A DNA stretch of 64,000 bases from Actinomycetota bacterium. GTDB taxonomy: Bacteria; Actinomycetota; Geothermincolia; Fen-727; Anoxymicrobiaceae. The notes beneath the pieces were generated by a model, which saw nothing but the letters and a program-made list of their open reading frames with translations, was not told the origin of the DNA and made no database searches. Every line of letters starts with the position of its first letter. The first letter of the stretch is position 1. The DNA lies in contig JAHJCO010000026.1 in NCBI GenBank assembly GCA_018831265.1, positions 62,001 through 126,000 on the forward strand. Direction: 5' to 3'. Made by a program: the position numbers and the translations under genes. Of the stretch, positions 30,264-59,069 are shown piece after piece.

Positions 30264-30306
30264 GTCGGGACGGCCGGATTTGAACCGGCGACCCCTGGTC
30301 CCCCAG
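30264..30306. repeat. E1 left attachment core
   Basis: 43 bases identical to 38653-38695, corresponding to the tRNA-Pro 3' half from the anticodon loop to the discriminator. The flanking base differs on both sides. It lacks the 5' half of the tRNA, so this copy is not a functional tRNA. Confidence 0.92.
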
Positions 30307-30454
30307 TCATCAAAGGGGGGTTTTCGGTACTTTTCGGTACCTTCTTTTAACTACCTTTAACGTGCTCCAAAGGGCCAACAAACGGCAGTCTGACGCGGTT
30401 TGTTACTACCTCTAGTTACCTGTACCTTGTAAGGGCTAGTTTTGGGCTACGGTA

Positions 30455-30483
30455 AATCCAGGTAGAGATTAGGTAGAGATGAG
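30455..30483. repeat. E1 left integrase arm-type site (candidate)
   Basis: Two GGTAGA hexamers 11 bases apart (30461 and 30472). The surrounding 29 bases match 38557-38585 with one difference, in the same orientation. E2 carries the analogous pair at both of its ends. Confidence 0.65.
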
Positions 30484-30513
30484 CTTTTCCCCTGGCCCGT
30501 CCACCCCGGCCAC

Positions 30514-30575
30514 ATTTTCAAAGTTTCAAAGTTTACAAAGTTTCAGGGGTCTAGGGGTCTACTACTTCCCCGTCA
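30514..30575 (-). repeat. E1 left iteron-like cluster
   Basis: On the minus strand, 8-9 base units run in tandem: GTAGACCCC, TAGACCCCT, GAAACTTT, GTAAACTTT, GAAACTTTG. The cluster overlaps the 3' end of the TerS-like gene. Units of the same type occur at 38415-38494 on the plus strand, so the clusters point outward at both ends. Confidence 0.5.
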
Positions 30576-31015
30576 GTGAGTAACGCCGGTTCCTCCTCCG
30601 TCTCAGGAAGTACCTGTTGTGAGGCGAGCTGCTTGAACAGATCGTTATACTCCTCGAGTCTCGACCGCACCTGTTCGGGAGGTATGGCCCCGACCATCCC
30701 CGCGATCTCCACCTTCTTGACGTCGCGCCAGTAGTCCGGGGCGCGGTTGCATAACCAGAAGATGCAGGCCGTCACGTTCCCGGCCTTGGCCCTCTCGAGC
30801 AGCGCGCTCTCAACCTCTCCCAGTCTTTCCTCCCAGTACTCCATCCCTGCGGTCTCTACCGCCTCTTTGAACGCGGGGTCAATGTCGAGGTGCTTGTTGA
30901 CGGTAGAACGTGCGTACCCTATGGACTGGGCGGCCAACCCCTTACGGGCTCCACGTCGGATGGAGGCGACATATCGCGCCTTAGCCTCCGCGTCAAATGC
31001 CCTGGTCCTTACCAT
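30551..31015 (-). CDS. Terminase small subunit-like protein (E1)
   Basis: A 154-residue protein with an N-terminal HTH (about residues 9-48, GLAAQSIGYARSTVNKHL) and the segment ESALLERAKAGNVTACIFWL followed by NRAPDYWRD, typical of phBC6A51-type HTH proteins that serve as phage TerS. TerS recognises the packaging site and regulates TerL. It ends the leftward operon. The E2 homologue (50195-50623) shares ALL..AK.G.V.A.IF.L..RAP..W. The C-terminal tail is acidic. Confidence 0.7.
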   Translation of the reverse strand: MVRTRAFDAEAKARYVASIRRGARKGLAAQSIGYARSTVNKHLDIDPAFKEAVETAGMEYWEERLGEVESALLERAKAGNVTACIFWLCNRAPDYWRDVKKVEIAGMVGAIPPEQVRSRLEEYNDLFKQLASQQVLPETEEEPALLTDGEVVDP

Positions 31016-31147
31016 CTATCCCTCCGATTCCTAAGGGGGCTTATGGGCGCCACCCGCAAGTGACGCCCCGCCCGTCTGATAGCGGTCTTGAGGGGGCCGG
31101 ACAGGCCCGGGGTGGCCCGCTACCAGTAGACTCCACCCCACGAGTAT

Positions 31148-31197
31148 GAGCACGGGCAGGGAACGGGCGTGACAAACCCGGGACGGCACCCGTGCTC
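31148..31197. other. Conserved hairpin element of E1 (shared loop with E2)
   Basis: Stem GAGCACGGG (31148-31156) pairs with CCCGTGCTC (31189-31197) around a 32-base loop containing GTGACAAACCCGGGACGGCA. The same loop sits on a different stem in E2 (50984-51034). It lies 13 bases beyond the stop of the 50-residue gene, inside the operon. Could be a packaging site, an RNA element or a protein-binding site. Confidence 0.55.
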
Positions 31198-31210
31198 GCA
31201 AAGGGCCGCC

Positions 31211-31363
31211 CTATACCGGACCCTGCGGGGGTCCGGTCCTCTTCAACTTCTCGAACTCATCCAGGAACGTCTTGAATTGCGTTGTCGGCTTCCGGCGTAC
31301 TGGCCGTTTGGTCCTGGGGTTGTATACCCCAGCGCCCTTGTACTTCGTCTTCTTCTTGCTCAC
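31211..31363 (-). CDS. Conserved 50-residue basic protein (E1)
   Basis: A small lysine/arginine-rich protein that starts MSKKKTKYKGAGVYNP and ends RTGPPQGPV. It has a GTG start that overlaps the stop of the upstream gene by four bases. The E2 copy at 51047-51202 keeps the N-terminal 26 residues almost unchanged, differing mostly by conservative changes, which argues that it is a real gene. The strongly basic N-terminus could bind DNA or RNA. No family recognised. Confidence 0.75.
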   Translation of the reverse strand: MSKKKTKYKGAGVYNPRTKRPVRRKPTTQFKTFLDEFEKLKRTGPPQGPV

Positions 31364-31542
31364 AGGAACCGCCTACTGTAATCATCATCCCCTGGTCGAG
31401 CGTCAGGGTTGGGCGGCTCGGGCTTGCGGATCGGTTTGCCGGTGAGGGGTGATGCCCTTAGCCAACTGGCGACCGCCGCCGCCGACCGTTCCGCCAGGCT
31501 CTTGGGCGGGGTGGTTCGCTTCTCATCCAAGTTGAACAACAT
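31360..31542 (-). CDS. Conserved 60-residue protein (E1)
   Basis: Starts MLFNLDEK and ends PPNPDARPGDDDYSRRFL. The E2 homologue (51199-51378) has identical first eight and last eighteen residues with a diverged middle. It is encoded directly after the coiled-coil gene (stop TAG immediately followed by ATG) and overlaps the next gene by GTGA. Function unknown. The conserved ends suggest two protein-binding tails. Confidence 0.75.
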   Translation of the reverse strand: MLFNLDEKRTTPPKSLAERSAAAVASWLRASPLTGKPIRKPEPPNPDARPGDDDYSRRFL

Positions 31543-57964: not shown

Positions 57965-58171
57965 ATGAGACCTCATATCATGCGGGCGCTGTTGGATTGG
58001 CAACGCACCTGGGATAAGCAGTCGGCAAGCGGTCAATGGGATTTGACCCCGCTAGAGATGTGGCGCTGGCTAGGGTGTATCTACGCGACGATGACCCCTG
58101 AAGAGCAGGAGGAGGGCGGGAGACTAGCCGGGCTCGAACTCGACCAGTTGACGCCGGACAAACAGTCATAG
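57965..58171 (+). CDS. Hypothetical 68-residue protein (E2)
   Basis: A small acidic protein rich in Trp (MRPHIMRALLDWQRTWDK; TPLEMWRWLGCIYATMTPEE) with AAGGGGG upstream and a hairpin terminator right after it, both of which support it being a gene. No homologue in E1. In the 120 bases before it, a frame of about 31 codons from a TTG near 57858 is open but weakly supported. Confidence 0.55.
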   Translation: MRPHIMRALLDWQRTWDKQSASGQWDLTPLEMWRWLGCIYATMTPEEQEEGGRLAGLELDQLTPDKQS

Positions 58172-58187
58172 CAGGGATGGAGCGCGG

Positions 58188-58216
58188 AGGGCCCCCACGT
58201 CCGGGGGCCTTCTTCA
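58188..58216 (+). terminator. Rho-independent terminator after the 68-residue gene
   Basis: GGCCCCC and GGGGGCC flank ACGTCC and are followed by TTCTTC. Ends the rightward integrase unit of E2. Confidence 0.75.
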
Positions 58217-58283
58217 TGTGGGGTGAGTATCGGGGCGGGTGGTGATCGGCGATCCTGGGGCAAATGGTGGGGTTATATCAGTC

Positions 58284-58541
58284 CTATTCGCCCCGCTTGC
58301 GCTCACGGTAGGCCCGCTGGTATGCCCGCTCTTTCTCAAGTGTCGCCTCCGGGTCCAGGGCACGACTTCTCCTCTTCGACGCGTTGATCTCCTCGCGGTG
58401 GGTCCGTCGGTACTCTCGGCCGTACTCGGAAAGGCACGGCTTACACCATCCGGTCAGGCCCGACTCCGAACTCCTATCCTGGCGGAAGTATTCCGTTGTC
58501 GCCGGGTAACTCTTCTTGCACCTGGTACACACCTTCTCCAT
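58284..58541 (-). CDS. Small CxxC zinc-finger protein, HNH/endonuclease-VII-like N-terminus (E2)
   Basis: An 85-residue homologue of E1 38125-38391: VCTRCKKSYPATTEYFRQDR, then WCKPCLSEYGREYRRTHREE. Both CxxC pairs are kept and the HNH part is absent. The 25 bases beyond its stop (GGGGCAAATGGTGGGG...) are identical in E1, so the whole right-end block is shared. Confidence 0.65.
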   Translation of the reverse strand: MEKVCTRCKKSYPATTEYFRQDRSSESGLTGWCKPCLSEYGREYRRTHREEINASKRRSRALDPEATLEKERAYQRAYRERKRGE

Positions 58542-58818
58542 AGGGCAATCCTATCAGGTCCATAGCAAACCCTTCACCATCATGTGGTCGGCGTTCCTGG
58601 GGCAAATCAGGGCTCCGGGCGTGTTGCTAGTGTTGATGGGGTTACCCGTGTTGGGGGATGCAACTGAAAGGATGAACAGGTCACTCGACTATCTCACCCT
58701 CGACCTCGTCCCCGCCCTCGATGAGTCCGGCCGTCTGTGACGTGGTGATCTCCCCCACCCTGCCGGTAGAGTCCCCTGTGACCCCGTAGTCGTTACAGAT
58801 AGCCCTTCTATACCTTTA
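58542..58818. other. E2 right-end non-coding block
   Basis: Between the zinc-finger gene and the iteron-like cluster. A rightward frame of 74 codons (58516-58740) overlaps the 5' end of the zinc-finger gene and lacks a ribosome-binding site or homology, so I do not call it. Nothing else is recognised. Confidence 0.4.
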
Positions 58819-58908
58819 GGTGTCAGAGTGTAAAGACTTCCCCGATTTCCTACTCAAACCCCGAATCTGGCGGTAACGAGTCCGGTAACGAGTTGTAAAG
58901 ACTTCCCC
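58819..58908 (+). repeat. E2 right iteron-like cluster
   Basis: Contains GTGTAAAGACTT and TTGTAAAGACTT (each followed by CCCC) and two GGTAACGAGT units. The GTAACGAGT unit is the same as in the E2 left cluster but on the opposite strand, so the clusters face outward as in E1. Confidence 0.5.
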
Positions 58909-58932
58909 ACCTGGGGCCTCAACCGTCGATTT

Positions 58933-58954
58933 CTGGTAGACAGACGGTAGATGG
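58933..58954. repeat. E2 right integrase arm-type site (candidate)
   Basis: Identical to 50071-50092. The second GGTAGA ends 73 bases before the right attachment core, exactly as in E1. Confidence 0.7.
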
Positions 58955-59024
58955 TTTTGACCCTGCCAGTACAAGCTATCACATGCCTGCTACGCTTAGA
59001 TGCTTTGCTGGAGCGGCCTGAGGG

Positions 59025-59069
59025 CTGGAGGCGGCGGTCGGAATTGAACCGACGATGGAGGTTTTGCAG
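59025..59069. repeat. E2 right attachment core
   Basis: 45 bases identical to 49885-49929, forming the 3' half of the intact tRNA-Cys gene. Confidence 0.92.

Follow-up and report, generated by a model that had tools for sequence, protein, structure and literature searches.

The satellite families named in the accessible part of a review are the P4-like elements, PICI, cfPICI, PLE and PICMI, with VEIME, tycheposons and types from soil bacteria as proposed additions (PMC11389934). SaPI and PICI bring the small terminase subunit (TerS) or use the helper's terminase at cos, and cf-PICI and the Streptomyces satellites MulchRoom and MiniFlayer also encode a portal and a major capsid protein, according to the available portion of PMC10690885. 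Here we describe two elements, E1 and E2, in a 64-kb window, the whole stretch of DNA analysed (positions 62,001 to 126,000 of contig JAHJCO010000026.1, assembly GCA_018831265.1), that encode both TerS and the large terminase subunit, TerL. That the two are satellite-like is well supported, and we consider it reasonably probable that they are sister phage satellites, which would use their own terminase to fill helper procapsids with element DNA. Initial annotation of the window had already picked them out as a sister pair with both terminase subunits and without capsid genes, in agreement with the matches of TerL to phrog_979 and of TerS to phrog_309 in both.

E1 and E2 resemble SaPI and PICI as small elements flanked by attachment (att) sites that have an integrase, regulators, a replication gene and TerS and lack virion genes; they differ in also having their own TerL and a cassette of orphan proteins. 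The PICI arrangement, in which TerS redirects the helper's TerL and the element has none, was found in neither. Like cf-PICI, MulchRoom and MiniFlayer, they encode both terminase subunits, but no portal or major capsid protein was recognised in Pfam and PHROG scans, nor in six-frame searches of the whole genome with three portal profiles and one capsid profile. PICMI are also minimal elements without capsid-remodelling genes; in the accessible text of PMC10803314, no packaging gene (terS, for instance) is recognisable in PICMI115, whereas E1 and E2 have TerL and TerS. General scans turned up no P4-like or PLE families, with no search aimed at their markers being made. The Wolbachia plasmids pWALBA1 and pWCP are likewise small replicons with TerL and a DnaB-like helicase; for these, the available part of PMC9560607 reports a further portal and putative coat gene (pWALBA1), pseudogenising copies (pWCP), and mostly transposable elements at the flanks of the plasmid islands. 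Methanobacterium phage psiM2 and other tailed phages share the phrog_979-type TerL; psiM2, however, has a full phage genome in the order TerS-TerL-portal-head, unlike the TerL-coiled-coil-60-50-TerS order of E1 and E2. The accessible parts of PMC12324425 and PMC13376191 held no closer system, and a literature search, with subscription papers, the original cf-PICI report and the VEIME and tycheposon papers outside its scope, found no element with TerL and TerS that lacked capsid genes. In its accessible part, a survey of actinobacterial prophages raises the suspicion that many of the small elements are satellites (PMC10023795).

E1 spanned 30264-38695 (8432 bp) at a tRNA-Pro gene and E2 49885-59069 (9185 bp) at a tRNA-Cys gene, bounded by exact repeats of 43 bp and 45 bp, respectively (tRNA genes placed with ARAGORN). 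The element coordinates first proposed were thus right, although the interval given for the pair, 30264..59069, also takes in ~11 kb of host DNA between them that encodes, by domains, Der GTPase, a radical-SAM/DUF512 protein and ThrRS. In 2-kb windows, GC content was ~0.57-0.63 in the elements, below the 0.63-0.67 of the flanks. Both are integrated elements with their own integrase and att sites and without a full virion gene set. A third, partial 22-bp copy of the tRNA-Pro att sequence, at 30065-30086 and 199 bp outside the E1 attL, may be what an earlier or tandem element left behind.

Der GTPase was present in seven of eight relatives from the same family, and the same tRNA-Pro adjoined it in six of seven fetched stretches, the contig of the seventh (L247) starting too late. 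Flank genes on both sides of the E1 site were kept in three of the six (L242, L243, L245), in which genes beyond the site stood 3.3-5.6 kb away from the tRNA and were separated from it by other genes, and the only match to an element protein at E<=1e-3 over the six stretches was one of 45 amino acids (aa) to HTH_17, in L244. At the E2 site, the order ThrRS-tRNA-Val-tRNA-Cys was conserved in all four relatives fetched, with spacings between the two tRNAs of 94 bp, 583 bp, 2.3 kb and 2.9 kb, compared with 11.5 kb here. Since neither insertion was present in the relatives examined, E1 and E2 are separate insertions.

A putative arm-type site, GGTAGAN5GGTAGA, occurred close to either end of E1 and of E2, always in one orientation, at 155 bp (E1) or 144 bp (E2) inside attL and 74 bp from attR. 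The motif matched four times in the window, twice per element, and not at all in 100 shuffles, a count that is partly circular because the motif was derived from E1 and E2 themselves. Its match in L130 is an independent test: outside this genome, among 255 loci, only L130/L137, one contig of a genome from the same family (G008), had the motif, which lay at the end of an integrase gene and ~70 bp from a tRNA-Thr, the same tRNA distance as in E1 and E2.

The two elements had the same gene order and intact reading frames, and had in common an integrase, an excisionase-like helix-turn-helix (HTH) protein, a replication protein (Rep) of DnaB_N/AAA_25 type, TerL, TerS and an endonuclease-VII-like zinc-ribbon protein. 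Integrases, HTH_17 proteins and a few small open reading frames (ORFs) were scanned with Pfam only, and the others with Pfam and/or PHROGs. Family matches in both elements confirmed the shared plan proposed at the outset, namely tRNA integration, a DnaB_N replication protein, TerL, TerS and a tyrosine integrase; that parts list had the main genes and missed the 50-aa basic ORF, the zinc-ribbon ORF and the end repeats. The leftward genes had all been said to overlap or adjoin, which fails before TerS, where a gap of ~200 bp in E1 and of ~420 bp in E2 was present, the latter holding a 111-aa ORF. The true starts of the two long TerL ORFs probably lie inside them, at 33567 (E1) and 53397 (E2).

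No ORF of either element matched a portal, protease, capsid or tail family below E 0.04, and the absence of these genes, as first reported, was upheld by profile search for capsid and portal genes in particular. Three weak matches of virion type, of the E2 coiled-coil protein to head protease phrog_1752 (E 0.043), of the E2 367-aa ORF to tape measure phrog_12506 (E 0.076), and of the E1 coiled-coil protein to major head phrog_10 (E 0.12), were read as coiled-coil or chance matches. The ratio of nonsynonymous to synonymous divergence (dN/dS) was 0.23-0.57 in all eight E1/E2 gene pairs tested, and the genes of both elements are under purifying selection. It is very unlikely that E1 and E2 are what remains of prophages after loss of the morphogenesis genes. 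The same reduced plan occurs twice, with repeats at both ends, the broken genes of a decayed prophage were not seen, and the gene order departs from that of psiM2, so that the original argument from two intact copies stands. What speaks for such remnants is that the TerL relatives come from tailed phages, that in genome G131 a portal-sized gene comes after a TerL, with a weak match to portal family phrog_104 (0.001) and a major head protein nearby in L095, and that a single origin of the two TerLs is compatible with the topology test described below.

We compared the two TerLs with the best 120 of 473 proteins that matched a TerL profile. The E2 TerL was up to 50% identical to other TerLs, with psiM2 as its top-ranked named phage match (45%), and 37% identical to that of E1, which in turn was 63% identical to P0004. 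A C-terminal tail motif, SDS.FG.IEPF, was present in the E1 and E2 TerLs and in none of the other 119 homologues listed. In a quick tree of 56 rows, of which the careful search was not finished, E1 grouped with P0004 (Shimodaira-Hasegawa-like approximate likelihood ratio test, SH-aLRT, 100) and E2 with P0049 (91); in a careful tree of 28 of 122 sequences, chosen by hand, E1 again grouped with P0004 (100/100), on a long branch, and E2 with P0035 (96/87). Hence the two were apart in both trees, while the partner of E2 differed and most forks were open. Forcing E1, P0004 and E2 into one clade cost 9.9 log units and was not rejected by the approximately unbiased (AU) test (p-AU 0.294). The case for placing the two TerLs in different clades is weakened by this result, and their separate acquisition is possible. 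The earlier view that the elements are not deletions of one prophage thus agrees with the trees, but separate clades are not upheld by the AU test.

The motor motifs also differed, in that the E1 P-loop, GGTGRGGTT, is without the Walker A lysine and the E2 P-loop, GGAAGGGKS, is intact. Across 122 aligned TerLs, this position held K in 106, a gap in 12 and N in one, an 810-aa protein with intein-type domains; the lysine was missing from the E1 TerL, its database copy and P0004. Because the loss is common to E1 and the 63%-identical P0004, which comes from another source, it is not a recent break in E1. The RNase-H aspartate of the motif RYWDLAA was kept in all 122 aligned TerLs and each residue of the Walker B pair in 121, and the E1 TerL retains both Walker B and nuclease residues. 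With that lysine missing, E1 may depend on the helper's TerL for the motor step. The P-loop variant occurred in two stretches of the viral_contigs set, neither with a protein similar to element proteins.

A dominant-negative protein would suit the E1 motif pattern, and one might imagine an interference element in which terminase and coiled-coil proteins, expressed on infection, jam or misdirect helper packaging as a defence, with transfer by chance transduction and not by the element's own terminase. We regard this as unlikely, given that the motifs of the E2 TerL are intact, that TerS is retained in both elements, that a 34-bp motif described below is specific to E1 and E2, and that none of 10 proteins (nine from E1/E2) matched PADLOC at E<=0.01.

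E1 and E2 also share a cassette formed by the TerL C-terminal tail and three proteins, a coiled-coil protein and proteins of about 60 and 50 aa. Identity between E1 and E2 was 70% for the coiled-coil protein, 70% for the 60-aa protein, 80% for the 50-aa protein and 73% for the zinc-ribbon protein, compared with 45% for TerS, 40% for integrase, 37-38% for TerL, 36% for Rep, and a value within 36-45% for the HTH_17 protein. At the DNA level, a block from the last ~35 codons of TerL to the 50-aa ORF (31145-32349 and 50981-52179) was 77% identical, and a second, spanning the zinc-ribbon gene and the 34-bp motif (38088-38379 and 58241-58535), was 76% identical. Synonymous divergence (dS) was also lower in the cassette and zinc-ribbon genes (0.27-0.97) than in TerL, TerS, Rep and integrase (1.04-1.84), which points to a later exchange of these blocks between the elements, or of the remaining parts, and not just to stronger selection. 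By these comparisons, which involve two elements only, the cassette and the TerL body have different histories, and the tail is seen to travel with the coiled-coil cassette, not with the TerL body. Tail and cassette would act as a unit, whose simplest role would be that of an adaptor joining the terminase to a helper procapsid; that the coiled-coil protein is an adaptor is a guess. Its predicted structure was all-helical in E1 (predicted local distance difference test, pLDDT, 68).

The 19-bp core of the 34-bp motif, exact between E1 and E2, occurred only in these elements within the 3.87-Mb genome, and the motif is a candidate cut site. In E2 only, a second copy of the core flanked the zinc-ribbon gene at its opposite end (58589-58607).

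The most likely course is packaging by the elements' own terminase into a helper's procapsid. Specifically, helper infection would derepress the element, integrase and the HTH_17 protein would excise it, and Rep would amplify the excised form. TerS and TerL, perhaps with the aid of the zinc-ribbon protein, would then cut the element at a site of its own, and docking of the terminase to the portal or procapsid of the helper would be the task of TerL tail and coiled-coil cassette. For E1, the motor step might be performed by the helper's TerL, with the element supplying TerS and the nuclease. It is conceivable, though doubtful, that the pair represents a capsid-less satellite family with an exchangeable motor, in which TerL bodies of different descent sit on a constant tail and three-protein adaptor cassette and the helper is changed by TerL swap. 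If the elements do bring the motor but not the head, terminase and portal can come from different genomes, and the conserved tail and cassette offer a testable idea of how a foreign motor fits a portal. Satellites in the described systems, to the extent that the accessible sources cover them, rely on a redirected helper motor, on the helper's sites, or on a complete head of their own. Satellites would also be extended to a little-known branch, apparently of Actinomycetota, and prophage calling based on TerL may misfile such islands as prophage remnants.

Several results weigh against packaging by the elements' own terminase. A helper prophage in the same genome, as suggested for follow-up in the initial annotation, was not found: profiles PF04860, PF05133, PF05065, PF10145 and phrog_2662 gave no matches each in six-frame searches of the 3.87-Mb genome (94.8% complete), and the same five virion-gene profiles matched in 2 to 7 of 14 control genomes; a helper prophage of a different type, or one in the missing 5%, may have escaped these searches. 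The E1 TerL is without a lysine that 106 of 122 aligned TerLs have (12 others being gapped at that position), and the AU test, by not rejecting one clade (p 0.294), fails to uphold independent acquisition of the TerLs of E1 and E2. P0004, the nearest E1-type TerL, lies on an 11.8-kb contig seen only through TerL; no Rep or coiled-coil homologue was linked to that contig (11,849 bp) among the matches listed. Finally, the coiled-coil model matched nothing at E<=0.001 in PDB or BFVD.

We also pursued relatives of the elements. When 5.8 billion proteins were searched for the coiled-coil protein, 625 candidates were scored and just the E1 and E2 copies were retained, a coiled-coil profile gave two matches in 31 genomes of the class, both E1/E2, and no coiled-coil relatives were found in the genome_contigs and viral_contigs sets (scans that rest on two short peptide patterns each); a back-translated motif of the 60-aa protein had no matches in viral_contigs. 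A cousin at tRNA-Thr in the same family (L130 206-6686, G008) had an integrase (43%), a Rep (38-40%), the HTH pair and a second integrase gene, and had no TerL directly beside Rep, its far end being the contig edge. An integrative plasmid-like element, in which terminase serves only as a nuclease in replication or concatemer resolution and spread is by conjugation or natural transformation, would fit this cousin and the broad AAA_25 type of Rep, which is found on plasmids too. We find it quite unlikely, in that TerS and TerL are kept together, the E2 TerL has ATPase and nuclease motifs, and no relaxase family was found among the E1 and E2 proteins scanned with Pfam.

More distantly, in genome G093 (L131 = L141), 34-bp direct repeats that differ at one position (805-838 and 11642-11675) enclosed integrase, HTH, Rep, a 130-aa ORF, TerL (phrog_2, 1e-37) and a 608-aa ORF, with no portal among seven ORFs scanned; this is apparently a second, parallel lineage of TerL-bearing, seemingly capsid-less elements, distant from E1 and E2. 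The search for relatives of the same plan, as suggested in the initial annotation, thus yielded only the cousin, which shares the integration/Rep half, and the distant parallel lineage. The claim of an undescribed satellite family holds in that none like it was found in the literature searched, but a wide family is not established and no homologue of the coiled-coil protein was found outside the window in the collections searched.

Across the phylum, this kind of TerL (E<=1e-30) was present in six of 396 genomes: this one, G131, G197, G176, G198 and G311. Both TerL copies in G131 had a portal-sized ORF after them; one of these ORFs matched a portal family weakly (phrog_104, 0.001) and the other matched none, and a major head protein was near the first copy (L095). 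In G197 (L094 6672-9565), a TerL 41% identical to that of E2 adjoins a phage-type DNA methyltransferase, and no portal was found among two neighbours scanned; because of the methyltransferase, G197 was dropped as a third member. Among 92 loci with a related Rep (the best 80 of 91 from genome_contigs and 12 from viral_contigs), a TerL-profile match was found in three: L141 (G093), L157, where portal phrog_1216 and a major head protein follow TerL, and L155, where TerL lies 6.6 kb from Rep and the stretch ends 0.9 kb further on. Only L141 had TerL beside Rep with no portal seen, and a wide family of the same plan was dropped on these counts. Related TerLs were present in at least 80 viral contigs, of which 66 had >=1.5 kb of downstream sequence; an ORF of >=250 aa was picked within ~3 kb downstream in 46 of these, and portal proteins were the commonest PHROG families among the 46 and the two from G131. 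No ORF was picked in the other 20, so these counts are no measure of how rare portal-less neighbourhoods are. A chance gene neighbourhood was dropped as an explanation for E1 and E2 because the same order occurs twice with shared DNA blocks.

Table 1. Features of E1 and E2, with positions in the 64-kb window.
Feature	Position	Strand	Match or remark
E1 attL, copy of tRNA-Pro 3' part	30264..30306	.	exact 43-bp repeat
E1 left putative arm-type site	30461..30477	+	motif match
E1 TerS, 154 aa	30551..31015	-	phrog_309 3.8e-16
E1 50-aa basic protein, cassette	31211..31363	-	80% aa to E2; no Pfam or PHROG match
E1 60-aa protein, cassette	31360..31542	-	70% aa to E2; no PHROG match
E1 coiled-coil protein, 229 aa, cassette	31543..32232	-	70% aa to E2
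E1 TerL, 441 aa from ATG, ORF open to 33654	32242..33567	-	PF17289 6e-14, phrog_979 1.9e-80
E1 110-aa ORF between Rep and TerL	33561..33893	-	no family
E1 replication protein (DnaB_N + AAA_25 + winged HTH)	33893..35314	-	PF00772 3e-24, PF13481 5e-28
E1 excisionase-like HTH_17 protein	35238..35453	-	PF12728 5e-11
E1 70-aa ORF (repressor position)	35453..35665	-	25% to L130 counterpart; no family
E1 230-aa variable ORF beside integrase	35801..36493	+	no family
E1 tyrosine integrase	36490..37638	+	PF00589 4e-28
E1 112-aa accessory ORF	37663..38001	-	no family
E1 34-bp motif, exact in E2	38094..38127	-	just downstream of zinc-ribbon gene
E1 endonuclease-VII-like zinc-ribbon protein, 88 aa	38125..38391	-	phrog_1035 1.3e-8
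E1 right putative arm-type site	38563..38579	+	motif match
E1 attR, within tRNA-Pro	38653..38695	.	exact 43-bp repeat
tRNA-Pro(GGG), E1 target	38651..38728	-	ARAGORN
E2 attL, copy of tRNA-Cys 3' part	49885..49929	.	exact 45-bp repeat
E2 left putative arm-type site	50073..50089	+	motif match
E2 TerS, 142 aa	50195..50623	-	phrog_309 1.1e-19
E2 111-aa ORF, no E1 counterpart seen	50634..50969	-	no family
E2 51-aa basic protein, cassette	51047..51202	-	counterpart of E1 50-aa protein
E2 59-aa protein, cassette	51199..51378	-	PHROG matches only at E>=0.08
E2 coiled-coil protein, 227 aa, cassette	51378..52061	-	counterpart of E1 coiled-coil
E2 TerL, 441 aa from ATG, ORF open to 53601	52072..53397	-	PF17289 6e-14, PF03237 8e-11, phrog_979 4.3e-97
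E2 129-aa ORF between Rep and TerL	53391..53780	-	no family
E2 replication protein	53770..55131	-	PF00772 6e-30, PF13481 4e-24
E2 excisionase-like HTH_17 protein	55128..55313	-	PF12728 1.6e-8
E2 repressor-like HTH protein	55310..55534	-	PF13413 1.3e-6; phrog_3 2e-4
E2 367-aa variable ORF beside integrase	55555..56658	+	no family at E<=0.01
E2 tyrosine integrase	56698..57843	+	PF00589 1.7e-27
E2 34-bp motif	58247..58280	-	exact match to E1
E2 endonuclease-VII-like zinc-ribbon protein, 85 aa	58284..58541	-	phrog_3273 2.6e-10, phrog_1035 1.9e-9
E2 right putative arm-type site	58935..58951	+	motif match
E2 attR, within tRNA-Cys	59025..59069	.	exact 45-bp repeat
tRNA-Cys(GCA), E2 target	59026..59099	-	ARAGORN

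Two further observations concern single features of E1. The top-ranked match of its integrase (36490-37638) among phage records was to Streptococcus satellite phage Javan2, at 30% identity. Additionally, the stretch from the 50-aa ORF to TerS (31030-31215) folded somewhat better than shuffled sequences, with a z of -2.0.

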